NCBI GenBank assembly: GCA_026396805.1
Contig: JAPLVZ010000010.1
Span: forward strand, 1 to 37,403
Direction of reading: 5' to 3'
DNA length: 37,403 nt
Source: Candidatus Falkowiibacteriota bacterium
GTDB taxonomy: Bacteria > Patescibacteriota > Patescibacteriia > Patescibacteriales > UBA12465
The translations under genes and the position numbers were made by a program. Below, piece by piece: positions 6,198-37,277 of the stretch (the stretch's first letter is position 1; every line of letters begins with the position of its first letter). The notes under the pieces are model-generated. The model worked only from the letters and a program-made list of their open reading frames with translations. It was not told where the DNA came from and did not search any database.

Positions 6198-6209
6198 TAA
6201 TTCAAACAT

Positions 6210-7118: not shown

Positions 7119-7141
7119 TTTGGCGCCCCCTTGAAAATATT

Positions 7142-7186
7142 AAAAAGATTTGTCCGGCCGGGCGAGCTGATGGCAGATCTTTTTTT
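7142..7186 (+). terminator. Terminator of secDF
   Basis: AAAAAGAT (7142-7149) pairs with ATCTTTTT (7177-7184). The inner bases extend the stem with some G-U pairs, and a run of T closes it. The loop is rather long, so strength is uncertain. Confidence 0.55.
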
Positions 7187-7189
7187 ATT

Positions 7190-7198
7190 TGATATACT
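7190..7198 (+). promoter_or_regulatory. Extended -10 promoter, near-leaderless transcript
   Basis: TGA followed by TATACT (7193-7198) forms an extended -10 element; there is no good -35. Transcription would start about 7205, only one or two bases before the ATG at 7207, so the mRNA would be essentially leaderless. Confidence 0.5.
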
Positions 7199-7206
7199 GT
7201 TAAGAC

Positions 7207-9609
7207 ATGAAGCTCAATTTAAGTCTTAAATTTCATAAGCGTTGGGCCGCTGATTTCGGCCGGGAAATCCTGGATTTACTGATCGAAACCACTTATTTGG
7301 CGGCGATTTTTTTAGTGCCCCTGTGGTTTGCCTATCTTTTTCCGACTTATAATATCTTTGAGTTCAATAAGCTGATTATCTTTGAAATTCTAGTTTGGCT
7401 CTTATTTCTGTTTACCGCTCTGAAGCTGATATTTTTTCATTCTCATCTTAGCTTCGCGCCCGGGAAGTTTTCACGGAAATATTGGCTTTGGCCATTAGTT
7501 TTTATCGCCGGCCTTAGTCTCACCCTTTTATTTTCGGATAATCCGCTTCTTAGTTTTTACGGGACGATTGAGCGGCAAGCGGGCTTAGTTTCTTATTTAT
7601 TTTATTTTTTTTGGTTTATTCTAGTAAGTTTCAATATTTTGACGGTTGATAACCACTTACCGCGGGGTGTGGACGATAAAATAAAAAAAATAAAAAGAGT
7701 CGCGGCGACGGCCGTTATCGCCGCGTCCCTGGTGGCTATCTACGGAATCCTTCAAATCTTGAATATTGATTTTCTTAGCTGGCCCGAGTCGGCTTTTATG
7801 ACGCAGCGGACTTTCTCAACTCTTGGCCAACCGAATTTTCTAGCTTCTTGGTTATTATTGGTTATTCCTTTAAGTCTGTATTTAGGATTCAGCGCCCGCC
7901 GATATTTAATTAAGTTTTTTTGTTTTCTGGCGGCCACTATCCAGATTATCTGTCTCGTCCTGACCGGCAGCCGGGGCGGGCTGCTGGCTTTATTTTTTGC
8001 CGGCGTTCTCTGTCTGGTTTATCTATTTGCGGTCGTGGCTTGGCCGCGCCGCCGAAAATTTTTTCTCGGGTTGGTTTTTGTTTTTTTAATGATCATTTCC
8101 TTGGTAGCCGCTAATAATATCTGGCCGGGGCGTATCAGCGGTATTTTTGACTATCGATCCGGCAGCGTCGCCGCGCGCGCCAATTTCTATTCCGCCGCCG
8201 CCGATTCTATTAAGACCCGTCCTTTATTCGGCTATGGCCTGGAGAGCGGCCAGGAAATATTTATCAAATATTATGAGTCGGATTGGGCGGTTTCTGGCGA
8301 TGTCGGCCAATCGGCCGATCGGGCGCATAATTTGATTTTAGATATTATTCTGGGGGTCGGTTTTTACGGCCTGATCTTATTCGCGCTTCTTTACTATTTT
8401 TTCTTCGCGTTGGCCGGGGATAATATCAAAAAGAAGCGCCGGCCAGCCTTATCTTTAGCGCTGTCTTTGGGCGCGGCCGCTTATCTTTTTTCACTGCTCT
8501 TCAGTTTTACTATCATCTCCGGCGAAATTTATTTCTGGCTTTTTTTAGCGCTCTTAGCGGTTATTAATCATGAGGCGGACGAAACCGCTGGCAAGCCGGA
8601 CCGGATTGGTCTGGTCGCGAGATTATTTAGATTCCTGAAAGAGCGAATTATCTTCAATCGAAGACGGTTATTGCCTAAAAAGGTGCGATTTTTTGTAAAA
8701 GTTGCCGCCGCTTTAGTTTTAGTCATTTTAACTTTTTGGCGGATATCCCTGGTCTTCCGGTCTCTAGTGGCGGATTATTATTTCAATAAGATTTATTTTA
8801 CGCTTGCCCAGCCTGATTATTTTACGGCCTTGACGCTCGACGGTTATCTTAAGGAACAGAAGACAAATCCGATAAATCAAGCGGCCTATGATTCTTTTTG
8901 GGGCGAGAAATTAAGCGAATTCTATCCGTCAATTGACGAACTAACAGTTAAGTCAGCCGCGGCGGAGAAACTGAAAGAAGTTGATAGGTCGTTGCCGGAT
9001 AATAGTTATGAGAATTTATTGGTTAAAGCCAAGATTAATAACGTTCTCGGACGTTATCAGCTCGCCCAGTTTTATTTAGACCGTGTTATCGCGATTACTC
9101 CGCGTTGGCCTTTAGTTTATCTGGAGCAGGGGAAATTATCAGTTAACCGGAATGATTTTAAGTCGGCGCTGATCGCTTATAATTTAGCCCTGCTTAACCT
9201 GCCTTCAGTCGAGGACGACCGCCTTAACGATCCGCATCGTGATTTAATTCGGCGTTACCGATATTTCATTTATTATAAAATCGGCGATATTTACGAGCGG
9301 GAAAAGAATTATGGCGCCGCCGCCAAATATTTTCGGCTGGCTTATGGCAGCGACCCGTCTGATTTTATCTTACTGAAAAGAATCGCGGACATGTATTACC
9401 GTCGCGGCGATTTACCAACAGCGATTGATTATACCAAACACGGCTTGGCGCGTAATCCCGGAGACTATAAATGGTCGGTCGCCCTGGCGTCTTTATATTA
9501 TGAAAGCGGCGATAAGGCCAGCGCCTTAGAATATTTGGAAAGGGCGTTAATGTTGACGCCTGATAATAATGAGGAGGTAAAAAGTTTGCTGTTAGAGTAT
9601 GAGAAATAG
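7207..9609 (+). CDS. O-antigen ligase/polymerase-like membrane protein with C-terminal TPR domain
   Basis: 800 residues. The first ~470 residues contain a dozen or so hydrophobic segments. They include the Wzy_C/O-antigen ligase pattern: LTGSRGGLLAL around 250, and PLFGYGLESGQE with a following DRAHNLILDI around 340-375. This is the loop that acts in glycan transfer in WaaL/PglL/Wzy enzymes. After one more helix (about 497-515) the last 250 residues are TPR-like (YLDRVIAITPRWPLVYLEQGKL, AAKYFRLAYGSDPSD, ALEYLERALMLTPD), probably outside the membrane. It likely attaches or polymerises a lipid-linked glycan on the surface or on proteins such as pilins. A GT8 glycosyltransferase follows. Substrate unknown. 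Confidence 0.8.
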   Translation: MKLNLSLKFHKRWAADFGREILDLLIETTYLAAIFLVPLWFAYLFPTYNIFEFNKLIIFEILVWLLFLFTALKLIFFHSHLSFAPGKFSRKYWLWPLVFIAGLSLTLLFSDNPLLSFYGTIERQAGLVSYLFYFFWFILVSFNILTVDNHLPRGVDDKIKKIKRVAATAVIAASLVAIYGILQILNIDFLSWPESAFMTQRTFSTLGQPNFLASWLLLVIPLSLYLGFSARRYLIKFFCFLAATIQIICLVLTGSRGGLLALFFAGVLCLVYLFAVVAWPRRRKFFLGLVFVFLMIISLVAANNIWPGRISGIFDYRSGSVAARANFYSAAADSIKTRPLFGYGLESGQEIFIKYYESDWAVSGDVGQSADRAHNLILDIILGVGFYGLILFALLYYFFFALAGDNIKKKRRPALSLALSLGAAAYLFSLLFSFTIISGEIYFWLFLALLAVINHEADETAGKPDRIGLVARLFRFLKERIIFNRRRLLPKKVRFFVKVAAALVLVILTFWRISLVFRSLVADYYFNKIYFTLAQPDYFTALTLDGYLKEQKTNPINQAAYDSFWGEKLSEFYPSIDELTVKSAAAEKLKEVDRSLPDNSYENLLVKAKINNVLGRYQLAQFYLDRVIAITPRWPLVYLEQGKLSVNRNDFKSALIAYNLALLNLPSVEDDRLNDPHRDLIRRYRYFIYYKIGDIYEREKNYGAAAKYFRLAYGSDPSDFILLKRIADMYYRRGDLPTAIDYTKHGLARNPGDYKWSVALASLYYESGDKASALEYLERALMLTPDNNEEVKSLLLEYEK

Positions 9610-14087: not shown

Positions 14088-14117
14088 CAAATATATAAGC
14101 TATATTTGAATAAAACT

Positions 14118-15188
14118 ATGCAAGACAGGTTTATAAAAAGATTTAATTTTAAGAACATTGAAGAGGCGCATAAGATTCAAGGCTTTATCGCTGAAATCGA
14201 GCGTTATCAAGGAATGTGGACAGCGACAACAACTTTGTCGCCGCAGATTTTAACTATGCTTAAAAAATCTACAATTATTACCTCGGCCGGAGCATCTACT
14301 CGTATCGAAGGCTCTAAACTTACTGATGAGGAAATTGAAAAATTATTCAAGAATGGATTAAAAATAAAAAAATTCAGTACGCGCGATGAGCAGGAAGTTG
14401 CCGGCTACAAAGAATTATTAGAAAATGTTTTTGAAGCTTGGAAAACGATAAAGTTCAGCGAGAATACAATAAAACATTTCCATAAAGAATTATTAAAATA
14501 TTCCGATAAGGATCAAGGACATTTAGGCAACTATAAATACGGTGAAAATAAAGTGGTCGCTTATGATCATAACGGAAAGGTTGTCGGAATAATTTTCGAA
14601 CCGACATCGCCGTATTTAACGCCGTTTGAAATGAGCGAACTTGTCGAATGGACTCAAAAAGCTTTAGCAGAAAAAATGATCCACCCGCTTTTAATAATTG
14701 GCAATTTTATTCTTGAATTTTTGGCGGTTCATCCTTTTCAAGACGGTAATGGTCGCACCTCAAGAATATTAACTAATTTATTGCTTTTAAAAACGGGCTA
14801 TGATTTTGCGCCCTATGTTTCGCATGAAAAATTTATTGAAGACAATAAAGATATTTATTATTTGGCGCTTAATAAAAGTCAGAAATCATTAAAGACGGAT
14901 GAATCAAATATTGTTCCGTGGCTTTTATTTTTCTTAGAAATAATAAGAAATCAAGCTAAAATGGCCGTTGAATTAAGCCAAAAAGAAAAGATTGAGGCGC
15001 TTCTTTCTGAAAAGCAATTGGCGGTCTGGTATTTTATTTTAGAGAAAAAAGAAACAACCCCAAAGGAAATTCGCGAGGCTCTTAAAATTCCAACTGTGAC
15101 TGTTTTGCAGGTATTAAATAAGCTTTTAGATATGAAAAAAATTGAAAGGCTTAGCGCCGGAAGAAGTACGAGATATAGAGTAAAATAA
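14118..15188 (+). CDS. Fic family protein (probable AMP-transferase) with N-terminal inhibitory motif and C-terminal wHTH
   Basis: 356 residues from ATG 14118. Fic enzymes transfer AMP or other phosphate-containing groups from a nucleotide to target hydroxyls. The active-site motif HPFQDGNGRTSR is intact, at about 200-211 of this start. Near residue 60 the sequence STRIEGS fits the (S/T)xxxE(G/N) inhibitory helix, here on the same polypeptide ahead of the Fic fold (class II autoinhibition). The last ~60 residues (TTPKEIREALKIPTVTVLQVLNKLLDMKKIERL) look like a winged helix-turn-helix. The gene is AT-richer than ftsZ and has its own promoter, suggesting acquisition. Target unknown. Confidence 0.9.
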   Translation: MQDRFIKRFNFKNIEEAHKIQGFIAEIERYQGMWTATTTLSPQILTMLKKSTIITSAGASTRIEGSKLTDEEIEKLFKNGLKIKKFSTRDEQEVAGYKELLENVFEAWKTIKFSENTIKHFHKELLKYSDKDQGHLGNYKYGENKVVAYDHNGKVVGIIFEPTSPYLTPFEMSELVEWTQKALAEKMIHPLLIIGNFILEFLAVHPFQDGNGRTSRILTNLLLLKTGYDFAPYVSHEKFIEDNKDIYYLALNKSQKSLKTDESNIVPWLLFFLEIIRNQAKMAVELSQKEKIEALLSEKQLAVWYFILEKKETTPKEIREALKIPTVTVLQVLNKLLDMKKIERLSAGRSTRYRVK

Positions 15189-15189
15189 T

Positions 15190-16080
15190 ATGAAACAAAT
15201 CCAATCATTCTGTAAATGTAAAAGTTGCGGCGATAAAATTAGCGCTAATACGAATAGCCGCCTAGTTTATTGTAAGTGCGGAAAGCTTGGTTTAGAGTTG
15301 CTTGAGAATATTTCATATTCATACGATAATTTTCCCGACCATCGGGCGGTGTTCAGCGAACTTAAAAAATACCGGCTTTATTCAATTACCATTATCATTG
15401 AAAATTTAAAATCCGATTATTATTTAAGAAAAAAATATACCGAAAAGAAGGTGATTTCGATTCAATCTAAATATAAAGAATTGTTATTTAAGTTTTTTTT
15501 CGATGAGTTCGGCAATTCGCAAGGCAATAAAATTTATGCGGATTTTTTACATAAATATCGAAACTTGATTGATCCCGACGAGGATATTGATGAGTATATT
15601 ATCAAAAAAGAGCTGGAAACTCGTTATCGTGAAAGGATATTAAAGCAATATAAAAATATTGAAAAGCTGATGGCGCCTCGTGTTCGGATTGACCGAGAAC
15701 GATATTATAATTTGCCGGAGCCCTTAAATCGTTTAGATTGGCGCAATCCTTATGATAATATTTTTGTTTGGGAAAAAGAGGGAAAAAAATATTGCGTGCG
15801 CGGCGGAAGCGGTTCTTCCGGCCAACGCGAAAAAAATTCCAGGTTTATTTATGGCTTCGGTTTAATAGATAAAATTAAACCGATCCCCTCGTATTTGTTT
15901 ATCTATAGCGATGGGAATGAGTTGAAATTAGTAAAAAAGTTTAATCATCTGATTGTGCCGGCTTATGACATAGGGTCAAATTATAATTTAAAATCCGAAG
16001 AGTCACAAAAGATTTTAAGTGATATAAATTTATTGGAATGGAGCGATTTTTTTAAGGTTAAAACAATAAAGATTTGTTAA
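15190..16080 (+). CDS. Unknown zinc-ribbon protein cotranscribed with fic
   Basis: 296 residues starting 1 nt after the fic stop codon, so it is almost certainly translated with it. The N-terminus CKCKSCGDKISAN...YCKCGKL contains Cys pairs typical of a zinc ribbon. The middle is charged and helical (LKSDYYLRKKYTEKK, LETRYRERILKQYKNIEKL). The C-terminal half has a motif rich in aromatics and glycine (VWEKEGKKYCVRGGSGSSGQRE) that I do not recognise. No membrane helix. AT-rich like fic. Given the pairing it may be a partner, target or regulator of Fic, but this is inference only. Confidence 0.6.
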   Translation: MKQIQSFCKCKSCGDKISANTNSRLVYCKCGKLGLELLENISYSYDNFPDHRAVFSELKKYRLYSITIIIENLKSDYYLRKKYTEKKVISIQSKYKELLFKFFFDEFGNSQGNKIYADFLHKYRNLIDPDEDIDEYIIKKELETRYRERILKQYKNIEKLMAPRVRIDRERYYNLPEPLNRLDWRNPYDNIFVWEKEGKKYCVRGGSGSSGQREKNSRFIYGFGLIDKIKPIPSYLFIYSDGNELKLVKKFNHLIVPAYDIGSNYNLKSEESQKILSDINLLEWSDFFKVKTIKIC

Positions 16081-16467: not shown

Positions 16468-16926
16468 ATGAAATGTCCCATTTGCTATTTCCCTGATACC
16501 GGCGTAGTGGATTCCCGGGTCGCCCCTGACGGCTTATCCATACGGCGGCGCCGTAAATGCTTAAAATGCGACTTCCGTTTCTCCACTTATGAGGAAATAG
16601 AGTTGTTGGATTTAATGATTGTCAAGCGGGACGGCCGCCGGGAATCTTATAACCGTGAAAAAATGGTTAACGGTTTGAAAAAATCCTGCGAAAAACGCCC
16701 GATTACCGCCGATCGCTTCAAAAAATTAATCCATTCCATCGAGAGAGATCTGCAGCGCTTGAAAAAGACGGAAATAACTTCTCTGCAGATCGGCCAAGCG
16801 GTGATGAAGAACCTGAAGAAGGTAGACCCGGTCGCTTATATCCGCTACGCCTCGGTCTATGAATCTTTTAAAGACGCGCATGAATTCCGCAAGGAACTGA
16901 ATAAACTTATCAATGAAAAGAAATAA
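16468..16926 (+). CDS. nrdR: Transcriptional repressor NrdR
   Basis: 152 residues from ATG 16468 (MKCPICYFPDTGVVDSR), the family's usual start and length. The frame extends to a GTG at 16420, but that lies inside the operator. The N-terminal zinc ribbon uses C3/C6 and the pair in RKCLKCDFRFSTYE. An ATP-cone follows (VKRDGRRESYNREKMVNGLKKSCEKRPI...) that senses ATP/dATP. NrdR represses ribonucleotide reductase operons. Its own target pair of boxes lies upstream and nrdD starts 4 nt downstream, so it probably controls this locus. Confidence 0.95.
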   Translation: MKCPICYFPDTGVVDSRVAPDGLSIRRRRKCLKCDFRFSTYEEIELLDLMIVKRDGRRESYNREKMVNGLKKSCEKRPITADRFKKLIHSIERDLQRLKKTEITSLQIGQAVMKNLKKVDPVAYIRYASVYESFKDAHEFRKELNKLINEKK

Positions 16927-16930
16927 TATT

Positions 16931-19900
16931 ATGTCGGAGACTATCAGCAAATTAATCAAGAGGTCCGGTGAAATCGTTGATTTTGATCAAGATAAAATCG
17001 TCAAGGCTATTTATAAGGCCGGTTTTGCGGTCGGAGTTGACGATCGCCATTTGGCGAAGAAGTTGTCCGATCAAGTAACCATGCGCTTGAACCAGAAGTT
17101 CCATAAGAACAGTATTCCGGCCGTTGAGGAAGTCCAAGATATCGTGGAAGAGATTTTGATAGAAAGTAAATTAATCAAGATCGCCAAGGCTTATATTTTG
17201 TATCGCGATCAGCACCGCCAATTGCGCGATATCAGTACTTCCACTTCCGACGATAAGTTATTGGAAGATTATTTAGGCCGCGCCGATTGGCGTTTAAAGG
17301 AAAACAGCAATATGAGTTTCTCCGTCCAAGGTTTGAATAATTATATCGCTTCCTCCATTTCCGCCCGCTATTGGCTTAATAAAATGTATCCGGAGAATAT
17401 CCGCCAAGCGCATATCAACGGCGATATCCATCTTCATGATTTGGGGTTGCTGGCGCCTTATTGCTGCGGCTGGGATCTGAAAGATCTGCTTACGCGCGGT
17501 TTCCGCGGCGTCAGTGAAAAGGTCCAAAGCAACGCGCCGAAACATTTTAGGAGCGCTCTCGGCCAGATCATTAATTTCTTTTATACGCTTCAGGGCGAGG
17601 CGGCCGGAGCGCAGGCGTTCGCTAATTTTGACACTTATCTCGCGCCGTTCATTCGTTATGATAATTTGAGTTTCAAAGAAGTTAAACAAGGCTTGCAGGA
17701 ATTTATGTTCAATATCAATGTCCCGACCCGGGTCGGATTTCAGTGCCTGTCCGCGGATACGGAAATCTTAGGCCAAGACGGGTGGAAGAAATATAATGAA
17801 GTTAAAAAAAATGATATAATCGCTACTTTCAATATTGAACGCGGTTTTATTGAATATCTGCCGGTTAATCATGTTTTTGCCCGGGAGTATAAGGGGAAAA
17901 TGTATAATTTAAAAAATCGAATCAGCGACCAATTAATTTCTCCAGACCATCGCGTCGTCAGAAAGAAATTCTATTCCGAGGAATATGTGCTTGAAACAAT
18001 TGAAAAAGTTAAGGAATTAAAATCTCCTTTTATCGTTCCGGTGGGCAGTTTAGGAAATAATAAGGCCACCAGTCCTTTAACCGACGACGAGGTTAGATTA
18101 ATCGCCTGGGTTATTGCCGAAGGAACTCTAGATAAAGGTGAACGAGGCAGCGGGCGGGTAAGTATTTATCAATCAAAAATTGTTAACCCGCAGGATTACC
18201 AAGAAATAAAAGATATTTGCGATAATTTAAATTTAAAATATACGGAAAGAAGCCAAATCGGCTTGGGGCAAGATTGCCAGGTTGTTAGGTTTGATGCCGG
18301 CAGTACCCGGAAAATTTTACAGTACTTTGGCGGCCATAAAAGCGACGGGATTAAATTTATTCCTAAGGCTATCTTGGGAGCCGACGCCGAAACGGCCAAA
18401 TTATTTTTAGCTACCTATATCAAAGGTGACGGCCATGATGATTGTAAAATTACCACGACGTCTTCGATTATTCGTGATGGTTTAATGCAGTTAGCCGTAC
18501 ATGCCGGTTATGGCGCTACGGTTTTAGTCAGAAAACCGGATAATAATTTATCTAAAAAAGATCGTTATATTATTAGATTAATCAAACATCGCGATACCTT
18601 TATTAATCAAATCAAGTCAGTTGATTATCAGGGCATAATTTGGTGTCCGAATACCAAAAACGAAACGGTTATCGCTCGCCGTAAAGGGAAAATTTTTATT
18701 ACCGGCAATACTCCGTTCACTAACATTACCCTGGACGTTACTCCGTCCCCATTGATTGGCGAAGAGAACGTGATTATCGGCGGCGAGATTAAACCGGAAA
18801 AATATAAGGATTTCCAGGCGGAAATGGATATGTTCAACCAGGCTTTCGCGGAAGTCATGTTGGCGGGCGATTCTTCCGGCCGGGTTTTCGGCTTTCCGAT
18901 CCCGACTTATAATATTGATAAGAGTTTTGATTGGAACCGGGAATGCTTGAAACCGGTCTGGGAGATGACCGCTAAATTCGGCATTCCTTATTTTTCTAAT
19001 TTCGTTAATTCCGATATGGACAGGGATGATGCCCGTTCGATGTGTCCTTTGGCCGGCGATGAAAAAGTCTTGATTAAATCTTCCCGCGGCCGCGATTTGG
19101 AATACTCGGCTATTAGAAATATCTATGAAGGCAATAGCCATCAAGAAGAATATGATATTTATAGCGATGGCCAGTTTATCAAAGGTAAATTTAATCGGTT
19201 TGTCAACCAAAAAATGCTGGAAATCACTCTGGTTAACGGGCATAAACTAAAAATATCCGAAGAACATTTAAATTTTGTCGTCAGGAGTAAAAAAGATAAG
19301 ATCCAAGTTTTAACCGGCCGGGAATTAAGCGCTGATTTTTATTTGCCTTACTCTCTAAAGGCTTATCAGGGTGAAGGAGGAAATTATGATTTGGGGTTTT
19401 TTGTCGGCGCTTATGCCGGTGACGGCTCATTTGACGGCGATAGCACGGTAGTTTTTTCTTTAGAAGGACATTACAAGAAAGATCTAATAAGCCAACTGGA
19501 AAAAATCGCTAAAAAATATTTTAAGGCTCATAGTTCGGTAAAAGCGGATACTAAATCTAAACTGGTAACCTTAAAAATACATTCCCGGGCGGCGGTGGGC
19601 TTATGCCGGGATTTTGTTAACGACAAAGAAAGAAATAAACATTATGCCGCTCGCCTCTTTGGCGCCAGTTTGGAATTCAGACGAGGAGTTTTTGACGGTC
19701 ATTACCGCACTGACGGGAGTAACAGAAATCGAATTTATACTTCTTCGGTAAAAATGGTGGAAACTTTAAATATGTTGGCCGCCTCTTTAGGAACGACCAC
19801 CAGCCTTTACGAAGACAAGCGAGTTAATCGTTATGGCCGGGAAACTAATTATGCCGTTTTATTCTATAAATTGAATCGTGAACAATATGGCCGGATTTGG

Positions 19901-20950
19901 TTTAAGAAAGATAATAAGTTATGGGTGAAAATAAAATCTATAAAAAAAATAGCCAGTAGCACCGCCTATTGTTTTGAGGTTAAAAACGGCGCGCCAGTAT
20001 TTACCGTCGGTACTACCGGAATTTTAACGCATAATTGTCGTTTGCGTTTGGATAATCGCGAACTGCGCAAGCGCGGCGGCGGCCTCTTCGGCGCCAATCC
20101 TTTAACCGGTTCTTTGGGCGTCGTGACCATTAACTTGGCGCGAGTCGGCTATTTATCCAAGAACAAAGAAGAATTCAAAGACCGTCTGACTAAATTAATG
20201 GAAATTTCCAAAGAAAGCCTGGAAATAAAACGCAAGATTATTGAAAAATTTACCGACGATCATCTTTATCCTTACTCGATGTTCTATTTAGAGGGTATTA
20301 AGGAACATTTCGGAACATATTGGAAGAATCATTTTTCGACTATCGGCATCAACGGCATGAATGAAGCGTCTCTGAATCTGATGGGCAAGGACATTTCTAC
20401 TCCCGAAGGCCATGCTTTCGCTGCGGAAATCCTGGATTTTATGCGTGAAAAATTAATGGATTTCCAGAATGAAACCAATAATCTTTATAATCTGGAAGCG
20501 ACTCCGGGCGAAGGCAGCACTTACCGCTTCGCCAAAAAGGATCAACAGCTTTACCCGGGAATAATCTGCGCCAATACCGAGGCGGTTAAGCGCGATAAAG
20601 CCGACCCTTACTATACGAATTCTACTCATTTGCACGTTAATTTTTCCGATGATATCTTTTCCGCCCTTGATTTACAGGATGATCTTCAGACCAAATACAC
20701 CGGCGGCACCGTTCTCCACGGTTACTTGGGAGAGCGTCTGCCGAGCGGGGATACCGCCAAGAAACTGGTCAAGAAAATCGTGGAATCTTATCGCTTGCCT
20801 TACTTTACTATCACTCCGACTTTTTCCATCTGCCCGAAACACGGCTATCTCTCCGGCGAGCATAAGTATTGCCCGAAATGCGACGAGGAAATCGGGTATA
20901 AAGAGAGCGTTAAAGAGAGCGTTAGCGACATCCGCTCCGCCAACCAGTAG
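16931..20950 (+). CDS. nrdD: Anaerobic ribonucleoside-triphosphate reductase NrdD, catalytic part, with two inteins and without the glycyl-radical loop
   Basis: 1339 codons from ATG 16931 (ATG 16913 would overlap nrdR). After removal of two inteins about 687 residues remain. The N-terminus is an ATP-cone (IKRSGEIVDFDQDKIVKAIYKAGFAVG). The active-site region includes HLHDLGLLAPYCCGWDL, the TPFTNITLD segment, SMC...CRLRLD and RGGGLFGANPLTGS. Near the end is the zinc site CPKHGYLSGEHKYCPKCDEE. The polypeptide then stops at TAG (20948-20950), so the usual C-terminal RVxGY radical loop is absent from this chain. That loop is encoded by the next small ORF. The enzyme makes dNTPs from NTPs without oxygen. 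Inteins: 17744-18709 and 19046-20035. Confidence 0.93.
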   Translation: MSETISKLIKRSGEIVDFDQDKIVKAIYKAGFAVGVDDRHLAKKLSDQVTMRLNQKFHKNSIPAVEEVQDIVEEILIESKLIKIAKAYILYRDQHRQLRDISTSTSDDKLLEDYLGRADWRLKENSNMSFSVQGLNNYIASSISARYWLNKMYPENIRQAHINGDIHLHDLGLLAPYCCGWDLKDLLTRGFRGVSEKVQSNAPKHFRSALGQIINFFYTLQGEAAGAQAFANFDTYLAPFIRYDNLSFKEVKQGLQEFMFNINVPTRVGFQCLSADTEILGQDGWKKYNEVKKNDIIATFNIERGFIEYLPVNHVFAREYKGKMYNLKNRISDQLISPDHRVVRKKFYSEEYVLETIEKVKELKSPFIVPVGSLGNNKATSPLTDDEVRLIAWVIAEGTLDKGERGSGRVSIYQSKIVNPQDYQEIKDICDNLNLKYTERSQIGLGQDCQVVRFDAGSTRKILQYFGGHKSDGIKFIPKAILGADAETAKLFLATYIKGDGHDDCKITTTSSIIRDGLMQLAVHAGYGATVLVRKPDNNLSKKDRYIIRLIKHRDTFINQIKSVDYQGIIWCPNTKNETVIARRKGKIFITGNTPFTNITLDVTPSPLIGEENVIIGGEIKPEKYKDFQAEMDMFNQAFAEVMLAGDSSGRVFGFPIPTYNIDKSFDWNRECLKPVWEMTAKFGIPYFSNFVNSDMDRDDARSMCPLAGDEKVLIKSSRGRDLEYSAIRNIYEGNSHQEEYDIYSDGQFIKGKFNRFVNQKMLEITLVNGHKLKISEEHLNFVVRSKKDKIQVLTGRELSADFYLPYSLKAYQGEGGNYDLGFFVGAYAGDGSFDGDSTVVFSLEGHYKKDLISQLEKIAKKYFKAHSSVKADTKSKLVTLKIHSRAAVGLCRDFVNDKERNKHYAARLFGASLEFRRGVFDGHYRTDGSNRNRIYTSSVKMVETLNMLAASLGTTTSLYEDKRVNRYGRETNYAVLFYKLNREQYGRIWFKKDNKLWVKIKSIKKIASSTAYCFEVKNGAPVFTVGTTGILTHNCRLRLDNRELRKRGGGLFGANPLTGSLGVVTINLARVGYLSKNKEEFKDRLTKLMEISKESLEIKRKIIEKFTDDHLYPYSMFYLEGIKEHFGTYWKNHFSTIGINGMNEASLNLMGKDISTPEGHAFAAEILDFMREKLMDFQNETNNLYNLEATPGEGSTYRFAKKDQQLYPGIICANTEAVKRDKADPYYTNSTHLHVNFSDDIFSALDLQDDLQTKYTGGTVLHGYLGERLPSGDTAKKLVKKIVESYRLPYFTITPTFSICPKHGYLSGEHKYCPKCDEEIGYKESVKESVSDIRSANQ
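17744..18709 (+). mobile_element. Intein 1 in NrdD with LAGLIDADG homing endonuclease
   Basis: 322 residues between VGFQ and TPFTNITLD, which rejoin to a normal NrdD sequence. It starts C1-LSADTEIL (block A). Block B is LISPDHRVV. Two LAGLIDADG helices are seen as LIAWVIAEGTL and LFLATYIKGDGHD. Block F is GIIWCPNT and the end is IFITGN with Thr as the next extein residue. Odd: the penultimate residue is Gly rather than the usual His; other inteins with an ARR-GKIF-TGN-like end are known to me, so it may still splice. Splice sites are inferred from alignment by eye. Confidence 0.9.
19046..20035 (+). mobile_element. Intein 2 in NrdD, apparently starting with proline (class 3-like)
   Basis: 330 residues. 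The junctions read SMC | PLAGDEKVL ... GILTHN | CRLRLD. Removing P...N restores SMCCRLRLD, the form I recall for this NrdD group, and also puts L2-A3-G4-D5 in register with block A of intein 1. Taking the preceding Cys as residue 1 would leave SMCRLRLD, one residue short. Block B is LKISEEHLNF. LAGLIDADG-like helices are LGFFVGAYAGDGS and FRRGVFDGHYRTDGS. Block F is AYCFEV, with Cys at position 4. Block G is ILTHN, with Thr before His-Asn. The Cys and Thr fit class 3 inteins, but the typical Trp two residues after the block-B His is Asn here. Confidence 0.8.
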
Positions 20951-30449: not shown

Positions 30450-31139
30450 ATGGTATCTAAAACATCCGACAAAGAAAAAGCCGTAAAGCTTAGAAGAAAA
30501 GGCCGTTCTTATTCCGAGATTTTAAAAGAGGTCTCAGTGGCGAAATCCACGCTCTCTATATGGCTGAGGAGCGTCGGATTGAGTCAACCGCAAAAGCAGA
30601 GGCTTACGGATAAGAAAATGGCGACAATAAAAAAAGGCGGGGAAAGAAAAAGAGAAATAAGGATCTCCACTACTAAGAGAATTAAAGATGAAGCGCGCGG
30701 CGATATTGGTCAATTAAGCATTCGGGACTTATGGCTTTTTGGGGTTGCTCTTTATTGGGCTGAAGGACAAAAAGAAAGAGGAAGAGGCAGTTTGGTGGCG
30801 CTAGGAAACTCCGATCCATTCTTAATAAAGGTATTCTTAAGATGGTTAATCGATATTTGTGAAGTTCCTAGGAATGATATCCATTTTTGGATATTTCTTC
30901 ACGAAACAGCAGCTGAGAAATTACTGGAAGTGCAAAAATATTGGTCCCAAGCGACCGGGTTCTCTCTTAATGAGTTTAGGAAGGTGACTTGGAAGCGTAA
31001 TCAGATCAATAGTAATAGAAAGAATCGCGGCGAAAGTTATCATGGGCTGTTAAGAGTCATCGTGCGTAGAAGTACGAATTTGAATAGAAGGATACAGGGT
31101 TGGGTAGAGGGAATAAATATTCATTGCGGGATCGTCTAA
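30450..31139 (+). CDS. HTH protein with LAGLIDADG-like region, overlapping tRNA-Gln
   Basis: 229 residues. Residues about 10-45 (KAVKLRRKGRSYSEILKEVSVAKSTLSIWLRSVGLS) are a resolvase-type helix-turn-helix. After a basic linker, LWLFGVALYWAEGQKERGRGSLVALGNSDPFLIKVFLRWL resembles a single LAGLIDADG/homing-endonuclease-like helix and following strands, but the acidic motif is weak. The basic C-terminal part (RKVTWKRNQINSNRKNRG) suits nucleic-acid binding. The last five codons (31125-31139, including the stop) overlap the 5' end of tRNA-Gln. It could be a DNA-binding regulator or a domesticated endonuclease; function unknown. Confidence 0.65.
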   Translation: MVSKTSDKEKAVKLRRKGRSYSEILKEVSVAKSTLSIWLRSVGLSQPQKQRLTDKKMATIKKGGERKREIRISTTKRIKDEARGDIGQLSIRDLWLFGVALYWAEGQKERGRGSLVALGNSDPFLIKVFLRWLIDICEVPRNDIHFWIFLHETAAEKLLEVQKYWSQATGFSLNEFRKVTWKRNQINSNRKNRGESYHGLLRVIVRRSTNLNRRIQGWVEGINIHCGIV

Positions 31140-31198
31140 CGGCAGGACCATGGCCTTTGAAGCCATTTATCCTGGTTCGAATCCAGGTCCCGCAGCCA
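31125..31198 (+). tRNA. tRNA-Gln (anticodon TTG), CCA encoded
   Basis: Acceptor TGCGGGA/TCCCGCA, discriminator G, encoded CCA (31196-31198). Anticodon stem ATGGC/GCCAT encloses CTTTGAA, giving TTG (reads CAA). T-arm CCTGGTTCGAATCCAGG. Its 5' end overlaps the preceding ORF by 15 nt. Unlike the two other tRNA genes here it encodes CCA. It marks the left side of the AT-rich defence island. Confidence 0.93.
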
Positions 31199-31383: not shown

Positions 31384-32376
31384 ATGCGTGCAGAAGCACC
31401 GAAAAAAATAGTGTATTTATTTGGAGCTGGAGCTACGCATGCTGAATTAGCTAATTTAGCAAAAGATCCACTCTCCGAGGCTTTTAAAAAAAAGAAAGGA
31501 CTATTGATAAGTGATGTTTCTAGTAGAGTAATGGCTCAGGCTGTTAATAAAAGTAGTTATTTGAAAGATATAATCATGGTTTCCTCAACAAGTGGATCAT
31601 TAAATATCGAATTATTTATTAGTCTCATTGAGAATAGCAGAATTTGTAACTGGCAAAAGAAAACAGTATATCTAAAAGGTTTAGTAGAAAAAGATATTAA
31701 AGGAATTATAAAAAAAGAAAAAAGTTCTTTTTATCTGTATAAAGCCTTACTCGATCTCCACAATGATAATGAGTTTAAGAAAAAAGAAAAACTTTTAGGA
31801 CTAATATCTTTAAATTATGATGACGTTTTAGATTTAGCCTATAAAGAAATTTATCGAACAAAACGTCCAAATTATTTTTTTTATCCAAATGATACAGAGG
31901 GAATTCCTTTATTAAAACTGCATGGCTCTTTTAACTGGGATAGAATAAATATAAATGGCAGAAAAAGAAATATTCAGATTATTCCGCTTGGGTCTAATAA
32001 AAGCTATATCCATGCGCCGTATAATTTTATTTGGAATAAGGCTCTGGAAATATTAATAGAATGTGATATTTTACGTATAGTTGGCTGCTCTTTAAGCCAA
32101 AATGATTTTCACTTAATTGATTTATTATTTAAGGCTCATTTAGAGAAAGGCGCCGCATTCGATATAGAAGTTATTGGCCCAGATAAAGTCGGGAGAAATA
32201 TAAAGAACTTTTTGGGGTTTTTTCCAAATGTAAAACCATTAAATGAAATTGAGCAGTCGTTAATCCCTGATGCCAAACCAATAAATCCATTTAAAACATG
32301 GTTAGCAGCTAAAATAAGAAGGGCGTATGGCAGTCGTTTGCCTAAAACAGAATATATTAAAAAAGTCTTAAAATAA
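31384..32376 (+). CDS. SIR2-like domain protein (putative NADase, defence)
   Basis: 330 residues. The Rossmann start is VYLFGAGATHAE (GAGAT at 14-18). Later motifs are ISLNYDDVLDLA (N144, D146), LLKLHGSFNW (H180) and ILRIVGCSLSQNDFHLIDLLF (G234 to D241). The Asn-Tyr-Asp, His-Gly-Ser and GxSLSxxD set is that of bacterial SIR2-like proteins, many of which cleave NAD+ during abortive infection rather than deacetylate. It is the first of three genes spaced 6 nt apart and is AT-rich. The trigger would have to come from a partner, perhaps the DUF262 protein. Predicted soluble. Confidence 0.85.
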   Translation: MRAEAPKKIVYLFGAGATHAELANLAKDPLSEAFKKKKGLLISDVSSRVMAQAVNKSSYLKDIIMVSSTSGSLNIELFISLIENSRICNWQKKTVYLKGLVEKDIKGIIKKEKSSFYLYKALLDLHNDNEFKKKEKLLGLISLNYDDVLDLAYKEIYRTKRPNYFFYPNDTEGIPLLKLHGSFNWDRININGRKRNIQIIPLGSNKSYIHAPYNFIWNKALEILIECDILRIVGCSLSQNDFHLIDLLFKAHLEKGAAFDIEVIGPDKVGRNIKNFLGFFPNVKPLNEIEQSLIPDAKPINPFKTWLAAKIRRAYGSRLPKTEYIKKVLK

Positions 32377-32382
32377 ATTTAT

Positions 32383-33477
32383 ATGGAAAATATCAGTAAG
32401 CCAAAATTAAAAAGAAAAATATTAGGTATACCCGTAGCCAAACTTATAGATGATTGGATTTATAGGATCGATTTAGACGCTGACTATCAGAGAGAAAAAA
32501 TATGGTCTAGAAAGAATCAGGAAGAACTCTTGGATTCAATAATTCAAAATATTGATATACCTAAAATATATTTAGCGGAAGTTAAAAAAGGCGAACAATT
32601 CGATTATGAATGTATCGACGGTAAGCAGAGAATGTCAACGTTATTAAATTTTTTTAAACCAGATGATAACACGGACTCGTTGGTCGTTAGGATCGCTGGC
32701 GAGAAGTATACTTATAAACAATTAAAAAAAGAACTGCCATCTCTAGCTAAAAAAATTGAAGATTTTGAGCTTACTTTTGTTATATATCCTGAGTTAGAAG
32801 ATGAATTTATAAGGCAGATATTTAGTAGACTGCAACTCGGCATCAGACTTAATAGCGGGGAACTATTAAAGATGGATATGGGGTCGATGAGAAATTTTAT
32901 TTATACAGAAATGGGCAAGGATGCTCCGTTTTTTAGAAACACAAAACTTTCTGAAAAAAGGTTTTCTCGACAATTTACTCTAGCTCAGATTTGTATAAAT
33001 TCTTTTAGCTACAATAATAATGGTAGTTTTGTTCGAGCTAGATACGATGATCTAGTAGACTTTTTTAAAGAAAGAAATGATGTATCAAAAAATGATGAAA
33101 ATTTAGCGCGTATCAGAAAGGTGCTAGAAATTATGGACGAAGATTTCGGAGATAACGCGACATCTATATCAAGCAGGGCTATTGCTGTTACGGCGTATTT
33201 ATTTATTGAAAATCTATATACAAAGCAAAATAGATCTCTTATATCGGAATTTGTTAAATTTTATTTACAGTTATTATCAGAAATCAAAAAAAATATAGAA
33301 TTAGTAGGTAAATATAAAAAGCCAGAGAATAGCTTTATTTTAGAAGAATTTCAAAAATATATCTCTCAAGCATCTGTTGAATCAAGTTCCATATTGAGAA
33401 GACATAATTTTATTAGTAAGGCGTTCGAATATTATCTAAATCAAAAGACAAAAGGGGAGATTATTAATAGTAAATAG
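32383..33477 (+). CDS. DUF262 (GmrS-like / ParB-fold) protein
   Basis: 364 residues. The N-terminal DUF262 domain shows LDADYQREKIWSRKNQEELLDSII (Y35-Q-R and W41), PKIYLAEV and the hallmark CIDGKQRMSTLLNFF (D79-G-K-Q-R83). In GmrSD type IV enzymes this fold binds and hydrolyses nucleotides and controls a DUF1524 HNH nuclease. No HNH motif is seen here, so this chain probably supplies sensing or NTPase activity only. It sits between a SIR2-like protein and a restriction endonuclease with 6-nt gaps on both sides. A sensor or regulator role for either neighbour is inference. Confidence 0.88.
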   Translation: MENISKPKLKRKILGIPVAKLIDDWIYRIDLDADYQREKIWSRKNQEELLDSIIQNIDIPKIYLAEVKKGEQFDYECIDGKQRMSTLLNFFKPDDNTDSLVVRIAGEKYTYKQLKKELPSLAKKIEDFELTFVIYPELEDEFIRQIFSRLQLGIRLNSGELLKMDMGSMRNFIYTEMGKDAPFFRNTKLSEKRFSRQFTLAQICINSFSYNNNGSFVRARYDDLVDFFKERNDVSKNDENLARIRKVLEIMDEDFGDNATSISSRAIAVTAYLFIENLYTKQNRSLISEFVKFYLQLLSEIKKNIELVGKYKKPENSFILEEFQKYISQASVESSSILRRHNFISKAFEYYLNQKTKGEIINSK

Positions 33478-33483
33478 GTTTAT

Positions 33484-34368
33484 ATGCATTATAAATTCGT
33501 AAAAAATGCTAAAGATTTGCAAACTACTCAATCCGACATATGTCAGGGGTTTTCCGCTCAAGCTTTACAAAAAATTGATAAAGCGGCTCCATATATAAAA
33601 AGTGCTTTTACTTTGAAAGATGCTATAAACAAAGCAAAGAGTCTCGATGATTTATTGAAAGATGAAAAAATATACGAAGAGCTATCATCTGCTTGTGGTT
33701 TTTCCGATAAAGCAAAATCCCAATTAACCCACCAAGAACTAGTGTTTGCAACTAAACGAGTTTTGAAAAAAATTAATGATAATACAAAAAATAATTTTAA
33801 TGACGAAGTGGTTTTCCGATATTTATTAACTAAAGGTGATTCTTTGGGCGGAAGTATGAGAAACTTAACAGGAGCTAATGCAGGTGTTAAATTAGTTAAT
33901 CTTATATTAAATAATTTAAAAAAGAAAAAGATTTCACCCAAGATTTTTAAAAGTAAAACTGGTAAGATTCAGCAGTTATCTTGGAATAATAGAATATTGT
34001 TATTTGATATTAAGCCTTCAAGAATTGGTAAAAACATAGATTTAATTTTATTAAAAAGTAATAATAAGAGTGATGCAAATTCTTTATTACTTAAAGATGA
34101 TAATTATTTGGCGTGTGGAGAATTAAAGGGGGGGATAGATCCCGCCGGCGCCGATGAACACTGGAAAACCGCCAACAGCGCTTTAAGTCGAATCAGAACT
34201 TCTCTAAAAAAGCAAAAACCGCACCTATTTTTTGTTGGTGCGGCGATTGAGTTTTCCATGGCCGAAGAAATTTATGAACAGTTAAATGATGGTAGATTGT
34301 CTCATGCTGCGAATTTGAATAATGAAGAACAGGTAGATGATTTAGTAAAATGGTTAATTAATTTATAG
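33484..34368 (+). CDS. Type II restriction endonuclease, AvaI/BsoBI family
   Basis: 294 residues. The PD-(D/E)xK core fits D186 in GKNIDLILL and E213-x-K215 in CGELKGGIDPAGADEHWKTA; the last stretch is the best-known conserved block of AvaI/BsoBI enzymes. A second conserved region is GDSLGGSMRNLTGANAG (118-134). AvaI and BsoBI cut CYCGRG, so a related site is expected but not proven. The gene is the third of the SIR2-DUF262-nuclease operon and converges on the methyltransferase; its TAG stop (34366-34368) overlaps the methyltransferase's last codons. Confidence 0.87.
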   Translation: MHYKFVKNAKDLQTTQSDICQGFSAQALQKIDKAAPYIKSAFTLKDAINKAKSLDDLLKDEKIYEELSSACGFSDKAKSQLTHQELVFATKRVLKKINDNTKNNFNDEVVFRYLLTKGDSLGGSMRNLTGANAGVKLVNLILNNLKKKKISPKIFKSKTGKIQQLSWNNRILLFDIKPSRIGKNIDLILLKSNNKSDANSLLLKDDNYLACGELKGGIDPAGADEHWKTANSALSRIRTSLKKQKPHLFFVGAAIEFSMAEEIYEQLNDGRLSHAANLNNEEQVDDLVKWLINL

Positions 34369-35751
34369 TTTTTTCCATAAGTAAACACACTTTCTTAGTT
34401 CTTGTCTCCCATGTTTTCCCATTTGCTGGCTGCTATTTCCTTTACCGGTAGGTAAGACCCAAATTTTCTCAACTTTTAATTTAGCATTCTGAGCTATATC
34501 CGATAGGATTAAGTCTACCGGGATGTTTATTCCAGCGTATCTTACATTATCGTTAACCATAACAAAATAAGCGCCCTTTTTTAGTATTCTTGCTGATTCA
34601 AAGATGATTAATGATAATTCAAAAAAATAATTTTTTACCATCCTCACTATTCCGGGATTATTTAGCGTTTTCTTTATTTTTTCCTGCTCCAAATATTTAA
34701 GTATGTCTTGAAGTACCTTTTGCCCGTTAAAAGCTTTTGAAACATTTCGATATACATTCTTAGAAAAAGATTCTTCTAAATTATTTTTATCTTTATTTTC
34801 AACCGTGCAAGACATCATGTCTTGCCGCATTTTCTTTAAAGATTCTTCGTTGGCGCCCAGTAGAGCCAGCTCTAATGCATAAGTTCTAGTATAGTCATAT
34901 CTATTACAATAAGGCGGGGAAGTCATTAGAATATCAAAAGATTTTGTTTTTAATTTTTTTAAACCTTCTAGGCATGATCCATTGATAGTGTCTATTTTTT
35001 TATTATTTATTTTTATATCAATGTTTGTTTTTTCTATGTCTTCGATTATTTGATTTAGTTTATTAACTATCGCCTCATCGAATTTTTTGATAATACCTTT
35101 ATTGAATGCATTTTTACCTTCGCCACGTCCGGATCGGTAATCCCATCTTAAGTATTGTCCGTCTTTTCTTGTAAAACTTATCTCCTCTAAAATACACAAA
35201 AAAACAAAAATGAGAATTTCCCTTATATCGGGATTCTTCTCTTTATTTGTGGATGTTATGTATTTCCCAATAAAAATTTCAGTATCTTTAGGGAAAGCTC
35301 CTCTAGTAATATTCAGATAGTTAATATCTTGCGCTTTTTTTTCGCTAATCCAGGGTTTATTTATCAGCCATATTTTTAGAGTTTCTAATATTTTTTTTGA
35401 TGAATTTTGTATAATTTTTTTTCTGACCTCAATGATTTTTTGCCCAATTGGTAGAAGTTCTATACCCACAGCATTTATTCCATTTTCATTAGCTACAAAC
35501 AGGGAGGTGCCACTTCCGGCAAATGGATCTATTAAGGCCCCGTTTTTTATATTTAATTTCTTTAAAACATATTCAACCAGAGAAGATGAATAACCTTCTT
35601 TAAATTTATACCAACGATATCCAGCTAAGGCCTTATTAGCTTGAAAACTAACGAGGCTTCTTTTTAAATCTGGGTTAATTTGAATAATACCCTTGAACTT
35701 CTTTTCAAGAGTATTATTATCTTTTTCTATAATACTTAAATCTATAGACAT
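34363..35751 (-). CDS. DNA methyltransferase partner of the AvaI-like endonuclease (probably N4-cytosine)
   Basis: 462 residues. The SAM-binding motif I is LIDPFAGSGTSLF (D75 to T82) followed by AVGIEL. The catalytic motif IV is ILMTSPPYCNRYDYTRTY (TSPPY at 277-281). SPPY favours N4-cytosine over N6-adenine methylation. Motif I precedes motif IV by about 200 residues, an alpha-like order rather than the beta order usual for N4C enzymes; the intervening region may hold the target-recognition part. It presumably protects host sites from the nuclease at 33484. It has its own promoter, so protection need not depend on the nuclease operon. Confidence 0.85.
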   Translation of the reverse strand: MSIDLSIIEKDNNTLEKKFKGIIQINPDLKRSLVSFQANKALAGYRWYKFKEGYSSSLVEYVLKKLNIKNGALIDPFAGSGTSLFVANENGINAVGIELLPIGQKIIEVRKKIIQNSSKKILETLKIWLINKPWISEKKAQDINYLNITRGAFPKDTEIFIGKYITSTNKEKNPDIREILIFVFLCILEEISFTRKDGQYLRWDYRSGRGEGKNAFNKGIIKKFDEAIVNKLNQIIEDIEKTNIDIKINNKKIDTINGSCLEGLKKLKTKSFDILMTSPPYCNRYDYTRTYALELALLGANEESLKKMRQDMMSCTVENKDKNNLEESFSKNVYRNVSKAFNGQKVLQDILKYLEQEKIKKTLNNPGIVRMVKNYFFELSLIIFESARILKKGAYFVMVNDNVRYAGINIPVDLILSDIAQNAKLKVEKIWVLPTGKGNSSQQMGKHGRQELRKCVYLWKKL

Positions 35752-35771: not shown

Positions 35772-35800
35772 ATTATACCTTTTTTAATAGTATTAATCAA
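35772..35800 (-). promoter_or_regulatory. Methyltransferase promoter
   Basis: Minus strand: TTGATT (35800-35795), 17-bp spacer, TATAAT (35777-35772). The -35 overlaps the TGA stop of the recombinase. Start near 35765, about 14 nt before the ATG at 35751. Confidence 0.7.
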
Positions 35801-37149
35801 TTACTAAAAATGCGTTTATTTTTTATAATTAAAGCTCCTTTTAAATACCCCAAAACCTCTCGTTTTTCAAGGATTAATCCCTCTCTAAGCACATATTTGG
35901 CATAATTGCGTATATCTATATCTTTCTGCTTGTCGAAGTCGACTCCAGCCTTTCCTAATACCCCCTTACTGAACTTATAATACCTCTCATTTTCTTTATT
36001 GAATTGGCGCTTTATACCTAGCATATTTATATCCAACTTATCTATCAATCGGACTAGCTGTTCAACTAATTCTTCTTCTCTAAGATAACCACCTTTGCAG
36101 TCAATATCTTTTGACCGCGCACAGCCGTAATAGACATATCTTTTAACTGAGCCATCGCTCAGTTTTTTAAATTTCTCATCGGCCGTTATCCCTGAGCCGC
36201 AATGTCCGCATTTAATGAGTTTGGTAAAAGCAAATTCTTTACATTCATGCCTTGAGATATTACCCCTTTTTAATCTCTCATTAGCCTCAGTATATAAATC
36301 CTTGGAAATAATTGGATCATAGCCGCCCCTATACCATTTATTACTTTTAACCGGATATTCAAATTCGCCATAGTAAAATGGCTCTCTTATCATCAATTGA
36401 ACCATGCTGATGGTCATGAATTTATCATTTTTCGTCCGGAAATCAGTCTCTTCCTTAAGCCATCTATATATCTTGCGGCAACTAAATTGTTCATGAGCCA
36501 TTTTCTCAAATATTTGTTTAACTATTGGCGCTCGCTTCGGGTCAAGAAATACTTTTTTTTGCCCGTAGTCCGCGTATTTGTCATGTAGATAGCCAATCGG
36601 CGGCCGGCCAGGCCGCCAGCCCTGTTCGCATTTAGCTCTTAATCCTCGTTTTACATTTTCACCTTTATGATCGTTTTCTAATTTAGCTTGAGAACCTAAT
36701 ATCATCAGTAGGAATTTTTCATTGGGGCTATTAGTAAATCTTTGGCCGTGTGTCCTGATTTCTATCAATCTCCCCTGATCCATTAAATCAACAATAGATC
36801 CTAAATCCCCAGCATTGCGACTCAACCTATCCGGCGCCCAGCAAAGGACGCCATTAAATACTCCCTCCCTGATATCGGCTAATAACTGGTTATAGACTGG
36901 CCTTTGTCCAGAGTCTTTGGCCGAATGGCTTTCTTTTCGGATCTCGTTTATTTGGATATTATCCCGAACAGCCATTTCCAGCATTTCCTTGATTTGAGAG
37001 TCTATGGAAAGAGCCTGGCGTTCATCTTCCTCGGAAGATTTGCGGGCATAGAGGCAATATTTCATTTCTGGAGCTAGTACCTCTAAATTAGCCCTGTTGC
37101 GCCCCATAAGAGCCGTTTTAGGCTCTAAGGTTGTAGTCGTCTGGTTCAT
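35797..37149 (-). CDS. Large serine recombinase (site-specific integrase)
   Basis: About 450 residues from ATG 37149; an upstream TTG at 37185 would place a palindromic site inside the gene, so ATG is preferred. The catalytic domain begins YCLYARKSSEEDERQALSIDSQ with Ser38 as probable nucleophile, and continues with CWAPDRLSRN. The Recombinase domain follows (GWRPGRPPIGYLHDKY), then a zinc ribbon (IKCGHCGSGI...YYGCARSKDIDC) and a charged C-terminal region. Large serine recombinases integrate phages and islands at short att sites, usually next to their gene. It is probably the mobility gene of the defence island. Confidence 0.92.
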   Translation of the reverse strand: MNQTTTTLEPKTALMGRNRANLEVLAPEMKYCLYARKSSEEDERQALSIDSQIKEMLEMAVRDNIQINEIRKESHSAKDSGQRPVYNQLLADIREGVFNGVLCWAPDRLSRNAGDLGSIVDLMDQGRLIEIRTHGQRFTNSPNEKFLLMILGSQAKLENDHKGENVKRGLRAKCEQGWRPGRPPIGYLHDKYADYGQKKVFLDPKRAPIVKQIFEKMAHEQFSCRKIYRWLKEETDFRTKNDKFMTISMVQLMIREPFYYGEFEYPVKSNKWYRGGYDPIISKDLYTEANERLKRGNISRHECKEFAFTKLIKCGHCGSGITADEKFKKLSDGSVKRYVYYGCARSKDIDCKGGYLREEELVEQLVRLIDKLDINMLGIKRQFNKENERYYKFSKGVLGKAGVDFDKQKDIDIRNYAKYVLREGLILEKREVLGYLKGALIIKNKRIFSN

Positions 37150-37152
37150 ATA

Positions 37153-37169
37153 GTTGTAATTATTACAAC
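37153..37169. repeat. 17-bp perfect palindrome before the recombinase start
   Basis: GTTGTAAT-T-ATTACAAC, directly upstream of the recombinase ATG (37149), with weaker symmetry continuing outward (CAT/ATG on the flanks). It could be part of the att site of the serine recombinase or an operator for its expression. Confidence 0.6.
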
Positions 37170-37277
37170 CTAATGGATGACGCAATTTAGTAAGGAAGTC
37201 TAGGGCATAGAGTAGACAAACTGTAGGTAACTACCCTTTTACTTTTAGGCCTTTTTAAGGTATCCCGCATTTCACCC

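Follow-up and report, generated by a model that had tools for sequence, protein, structure and literature searches.

A SIR2-DUF262 gene pair accompanied by DNA methyltransferases: a candidate methylation-dependent effector module, found here on a BsoBI-type restriction-modification system

Genes for a SIR2-like protein and a DUF262 protein form a pair that is regularly accompanied by a DNA methyltransferase gene, and in only some of its loci by a gene for a type II restriction endonuclease. The pair looks like a methylation-dependent effector module, which in the locus described here is placed on a type II system, and not like an extra layer specific to AvaI-type systems. The evidence was read from sequence: which genes are present, how strictly they occur together, that methyltransferase and effector are both exchanged, and that the catalytic motifs are intact. 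The locus lies in a contig of a Candidatus Falkowiibacteriota bacterium (JAPLVZ010000010.1, assembly GCA_026396805.1); the whole stretch analysed, of 37,403 nucleotides, is called the window below. Three of its genes stand in tandem, with gaps of 6 nt each between the SIR2-like and DUF262 genes and between the DUF262 and nuclease genes, and the methyltransferase gene is convergent with the nuclease gene, overlapping its end by 6 nt (Table 1).

Table 1. Features of the four-gene locus and its borders (window positions)
Feature	Position	Strand	Remarks
tRNA-Gln	31125-31198	+	ARAGORN; upstream edge of low-GC island
SIR2-like predicted NADase	31384-32376	+	330-aa ORF; proposed effector
DUF262/GmrSD_N protein	32383-33477	+	364-aa ORF; helical C-terminal half; predicted DNA-state sensor/NTPase switch
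AvaI/BsoBI-family type II restriction endonuclease	33484-34368	+	294-aa ORF
Type II DNA methyltransferase	34363-35751	-	462-aa ORF; AvaI/BsoBI-type
Large serine recombinase	35797-37185	-	Pfam Resolvase/Recombinase/Zn_ribbon_recom; GC 39.5%

The GC content of all four defence genes is 30.4-31.5%, against about 45% across most of the window, and because of this common low value they probably arrived together. The block sits between the tRNA-Gln gene and the serine recombinase gene; the latter differs from the defence genes in GC content, lies outside the conserved unit and possibly belongs to the element carrying the island. In a relative of the same family (G339) tRNA-Gln directly follows ftsX, the order also seen in the window flank, and a SIR2 search of that genome gave no match. 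A search for attachment-site repeats around the island returned short AT-rich matches only, and a promoter and terminator scan gave about as many matches as in shuffled sequences. In the window a gene for an HTH protein (30450-31139) is located between ftsX and tRNA-Gln, its 3' end overlapping the tRNA gene by 15 bp; it is missing from this place in G339. The contig end (37278-37403) resembles, as judged by eye, a C-terminal fragment of a transposase.

The SIR2-like protein matches Pfam SIR2_2 (E 3e-6). Its residues N144 and H180, invariant across 18 relatives, fall on the NYD and KLHGS motifs when aligned with defence SIR2 proteins of solved structure, and its structural model (pLDDT 87) has SIR2-HerA and DSR2 as nearest folds; no CxxC zinc ribbon was found in it. 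From these features it is predicted to be an NADase effector. A search for its relatives in phages and plasmids found none.

The DUF262 protein matches Pfam GmrSD_N/DUF262 (E 9e-12) and two PADLOC profiles, NsnA PDLC03877 (E 2e-24) and PD-T4-2_A (E 7e-14). Its YQR and DGKQR motifs are intact; the folds nearest to its model, by weak matches, are those of ParB, BrxU and SspE. Besides DUF262, no DNA-recognition domain was identified, and in phages and plasmids only distant DUF262 relatives were found. As described in PMC13251355 and PMC12137116, sensing of modifications is an established function of DUF262 proteins, which switch through NTPase activity, and residues for NTP hydrolysis are required for defence in GrwAB and SspE.

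The nuclease is a clear member of the BsoBI family (Pfam BsoBI PF09194, E 1e-78; BsoBI structure PDB 1dc1, E 7e-60), with the stretch GELKGGIDPAGADEHWKTAN identical to BsoBI and the active-site region intact. The methyltransferase matches Pfam N6_N4_Mtase (E 2e-8) and PADLOC MTase_II PDLC03224 (E 1e-144); it is 50% identical to the enzyme of L022, a further SIR2-DUF262 locus, and 64% identical to that of L057, a plain BsoBI locus from the same phylum as the window, and its relatives adjoin BsoBI in L022, L057, L058 and L059. The TSPPY/SSPPY motif, the one indication of class, probably places the methyltransferases in the N4-cytosine class. The convergent order of nuclease and methyltransferase genes is the same in L057, where SIR2 and DUF262 are missing; plasmids likewise carry BsoBI/methyltransferase pairs lacking them. 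In one of these, from Enterococcus faecalis (L058), a TIR-domain protein is encoded at 7088-8014, about 1.7 kb downstream of the BsoBI pair. ORF coordinates, Pfam and PADLOC confirm the description given in the first-pass annotation, a SIR2-like gene, a DUF262 gene and an AvaI-like nuclease gene with 6-nt gaps facing a methyltransferase gene, and its attribution of two of these genes to a type II nuclease/methyltransferase pair is borne out. The same holds for its remark that DUF262 lacks the HNH partner domain of GmrSD, since neither Pfam nor fold comparison revealed a DUF1524/HNH (His-Me nuclease) domain in the protein or its neighbours.

In all 19 loci with intact flanks DUF262 immediately follows SIR2, and a gene for a DNA methyltransferase is found within two genes. 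The 19 are the window, L012-L015, L017, L019-L029, L054 and L056, found partly by SIR2 motif patterns, with L016 and L018 left out of the count because contig ends cut them; they span many bacterial phyla and one archaeon. A search with SIR2 alone in 380 genomes of the window's phylum recovered one strong relative besides the window itself, with DUF262 directly next to it, and a two-row SIR2 alignment of both, run against 84,980 species, led to 23 loci. Started from DUF262 instead, a search of 217 genomes of the L018 phylum (titled Nitrospirae) added two loci, both with the order methyltransferase-SIR2-DUF262. No locus was added from 396 genomes of the L012 phylum (titled Acidobacteriia) or 209 of the L019 phylum (titled Omnitrophota). 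At the thresholds used the pair occurs in 2 of the 380 genomes (window included), 1 of the 396, 1 of the 209 and 4 of the 217, the centre genome of each of the last three sets being already known and one of the four being the L025 genome again.

Five distant SIR2 relatives without DUF262 (L030-L034) are also devoid of such a methyltransferase in the flanking DNA examined. The exact split between these five and the 19 loci has a chance probability of about 2e-5, a value to be read with the reservation that related loci are not independent. Among the 11 loci with the dedicated methyltransferase described below, the distances of SIR2 track those of DUF262 (r = 0.91), and methyltransferase distances correlate with those of SIR2 and DUF262 at r = 0.36-0.49 (p 0.02-0.007). 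That the genes are chance neighbours in a defence island gains some ground from the general enrichment of DUF262 genes near restriction-modification (RM) genes (PMC4619093), which raises the background rate of such neighbours. Against it stand the 19/19 co-occurrence, the fixed SIR2-DUF262 order, the correlated distances and the location of stand-alone trios among housekeeping genes; we consider it highly improbable, and for the SIR2-DUF262 pair as such it is refuted by the strict co-occurrence. The first-pass annotation had proposed looking for SIR2 and DUF262 apart from each other in other genomes as a sign of chance; when this was done, they were found strictly together. Two of the distant relatives, L031 (4999-8753) and L032 (4634-7948), have similar-looking neighbour genes in their two genomes and possibly represent a different SIR2 defence operon.

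While one methyltransferase is always present, its type changes at least six times along the SIR2-DUF262 tree. Twelve of the 19 loci carry a dedicated family of about 410 aa, encoded either upstream on the same strand or convergently downstream; in ten of them it is 44-72% identical across bacterial phyla and the archaeon, and the enzymes of two later loci are 59-62% identical to that of L028. BsoBI-type methyltransferases are present in two loci (the window and L022), a beta-type enzyme with reversed motif order in three (L012, L014, L017) and a further type in two (L013, L029). Only four loci have a type II nuclease adjacent: a BsoBI enzyme in the window and in L022, a XhoI enzyme in L014 (Pfam E 2e-79) and, presumably, a member of an unnamed family in L017. 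L025 retains a frameshifted BsoBI remnant. Other loci adjoin systems of type I (L019), type III (L020, L023) or type ISP (L021, L024), and in L026, L027, L028, L054 and L056 the trio is accompanied by no recognised restriction enzyme, several of these trios lying among housekeeping genes.

Given these five lone-methyltransferase loci, protection against a nuclease next door does not account for the methylase. Judged by gene content, the conserved core is methyltransferase, DUF262 and SIR2, and the nuclease is not needed. Since the nuclease is optional and BsoBI pairs occur without SIR2-DUF262, the latter appears to be an add-on to methyltransferases and not to BsoBI. Of the composite defence system proposed in the first-pass annotation, the composite unit looks supported, and DUF262 retains the NTPase/sensor motifs known for such proteins; the tie to the AvaI/BsoBI nuclease does not stand, the constant partner being the methyltransferase. 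The same counts bear on the view that SIR2-DUF262 guards restriction, firing in response to phage inactivation of the RM system or to DNA ends left after cutting. PARIS-like guards of restriction are known, according to a review (PMC12707154), and the pair adjoins systems of type I, II, III and ISP; however, 15 of the 19 loci have no adjacent type II nuclease, which also speaks against the nuclease as a fixed partner, and at least five have no recognised restriction enzyme of any kind, so that we find this guard role quite improbable.

The effector is exchanged as well. In L017 an unnamed 235-aa protein (6154-6861), of a family with no Pfam or PADLOC match, is encoded beside the methyltransferase gene. 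In L061, from a Paraburkholderia plasmid, the methyltransferase shares 74% identity with the L017 enzyme, and the 235-aa protein has a homologue (4877-5593) that is 51% identical; both proteins are presumed to form a restriction endonuclease family, possibly of XhoI isoschizomers. The RM pair of L061 is followed by DUF262 and HEPN (5664-7473), with HEPN in the effector position and no SIR2. As L017 combines DUF262 with SIR2 and L061 combines it with HEPN, a DUF262-effector module stands behind RM systems of one kind with either of two killers. Four viral contigs from IMG/VR (L050-L053), which lack SIR2-DUF262, encode methyltransferases sharing 36-40% identity with the dedicated family; these might, speculatively, serve phage self-protection.

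For the module as a whole, we lean towards a self/non-self mechanism, in which the methyltransferase would mark the cell's own DNA, and the DUF262 protein would detect DNA lacking the mark, switch through NTP binding or hydrolysis and thereby activate SIR2; the activated SIR2 would destroy NAD+, and the infected cell would stop or die. In the window the mark would be written by the BsoBI-type methyltransferase and would therefore also protect against BsoBI cutting, with cutting as the first response and suicide as the back-up. What we infer here is the reading of the methylation state by DUF262, its activation of SIR2, the consumption of NAD+ by SIR2, and phage or plasmid DNA as the target. 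Silencing by self methylation and firing on unmethylated DNA is preferred because, among mechanisms that require a methyltransferase and can do without a nuclease, it is the simplest.

Alternatively, the pair might be a type IV-like layer, with DUF262 sensing hypermodified phage DNA and firing SIR2 while the methyltransferase or RM system deals with unmodified phages. The characterised DUF262 enzymes GmrSD, BrxU and GrwAB target modified DNA, BREX with BrxU is a precedent for such complementary pairing, and several loci do adjoin type I, III or ISP systems. The lone-methyltransferase loci, however, would have no arm against unmodified phages to complement, and for this reason the type IV reading is ranked below the self/non-self one; as one dedicated methyltransferase family moreover accompanies SIR2-DUF262 across phyla, we hold it to be unlikely. 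A second alternative is licensing, in which host methylation would prime DUF262 and a second phage cue would trigger SIR2. The obligate methyltransferase fits such a scheme, and SspE, itself a DUF262 protein, is described in PMC13251355 as activated by the host phosphorothioate mark, whereupon it attacks unmarked DNA. The nuclease of SspE is nevertheless aimed at DNA, whereas destruction of NAD+ is untargeted, so that activation of SIR2 by self DNA would be lethal to the host and licensing would require a second signal. As there is no way to direct NAD+ loss at foreign DNA, we regard activation by the host mark as less likely, although it may operate in a two-signal version like that of SspE; licensing is given little credence here. 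What weighs against sensing of unmarked DNA is that the DUF262 proteins characterised so far respond to modified and not to unmodified DNA and that the host mark licenses SspE (PMC13251355), together with the lack of a DNA-recognition domain other than DUF262, the general enrichment of DUF262 genes near RM genes and the small number of loci (19).

As a tentative and somewhat doubtful extension of the self/non-self mechanism, the system may amount to restriction through NAD depletion: the DUF262 proteins would recognise, in a sequence-specific way, that a mark is missing, possibly at a site common to all of them close to CTCGAG, and would be coupled to exchangeable killers (SIR2, HEPN), whichever methyltransferase writes the mark. 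The AvaI/BsoBI family recognises CYCGRG and XhoI recognises CTCGAG. One shared site is hinted at by the overlap of both targets at CTCGAG and by the remnant in L025, which is BsoBI again. That all the methyltransferases have a single target is no more than suggestive, since the dedicated family is variable in two regions, residues 100-140 and 200-235, with 32-34% identity.

The locus shares parts with several known systems. Its nuclease and methyltransferase are those of an AvaI/BsoBI type II RM system, to which SIR2 and DUF262 are added upstream of the nuclease. With the type IV systems GmrSD, BrxU and GrwAB it shares the DUF262 fold with QR and DGxQR motifs; unlike them, it has SIR2 as partner in place of a DUF1524/HNH nuclease, and a methyltransferase is always present. 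SspABCD-SspE similarly couples a writer of self-DNA modification to a DUF262 sensor with an effector, but there the writer is phosphorothioation by sspABCD and the effector an HNH nickase, whereas here they are a methyltransferase and SIR2. The DUF262 protein matches the profiles of both PD-T4-2 and Menshen, NsnA of PADLOC being what we take to be the Menshen gene, for which literature searches gave no confirmation. For PD-T4-2 the domains listed in PMC10952713 include DUF262 as well as HEPN, a combination also present in L061 on the plasmid; the window locus differs in having no HEPN protein and SIR2 as its effector. The partner in Menshen is an OLD-type nuclease (PMC10952713), a gene absent from the window locus, where the neighbours are SIR2, BsoBI and the methyltransferase. 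The SIR2 fold with catalytic N/H motifs and no zinc ribbon is common to SIR2-HerA, DSR1/DSR2, Thoeris and SPARSA, in which the sensor is HerA, a fused sensor, TIR/ThsB or Argonaute, and not DUF262; no HerA ATPase gene was found in the window locus.

Profile libraries and the open-access literature searched contain no name for the combination of methyltransferase, DUF262 and SIR2, in agreement with the first-pass annotation, which knew of no named system with this exact gene set; subscription papers or preprints may hold one. The one open-access article found to mention SIR2, DUF262, restriction and defence together lists them in separate systems. If the self/non-self mechanism is true, it would join methylation-based self recognition, as in RM systems, with NAD-depleting abortive infection, two strategies usually kept apart; restriction systems that have no restriction enzyme would be expected, and a number of the many DUF262 genes near RM systems would acquire a concrete role.

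Elsewhere in the window, a second low-GC stretch (14106-16080, about 33%) contains a gene for a Fic/Doc protein as well as a 296-aa ORF whose only match, a weak one, is to DUF7695, and at 16913-20950 the anaerobic ribonucleotide reductase NrdD is split by an intein with a LAGLIDADG-like domain.
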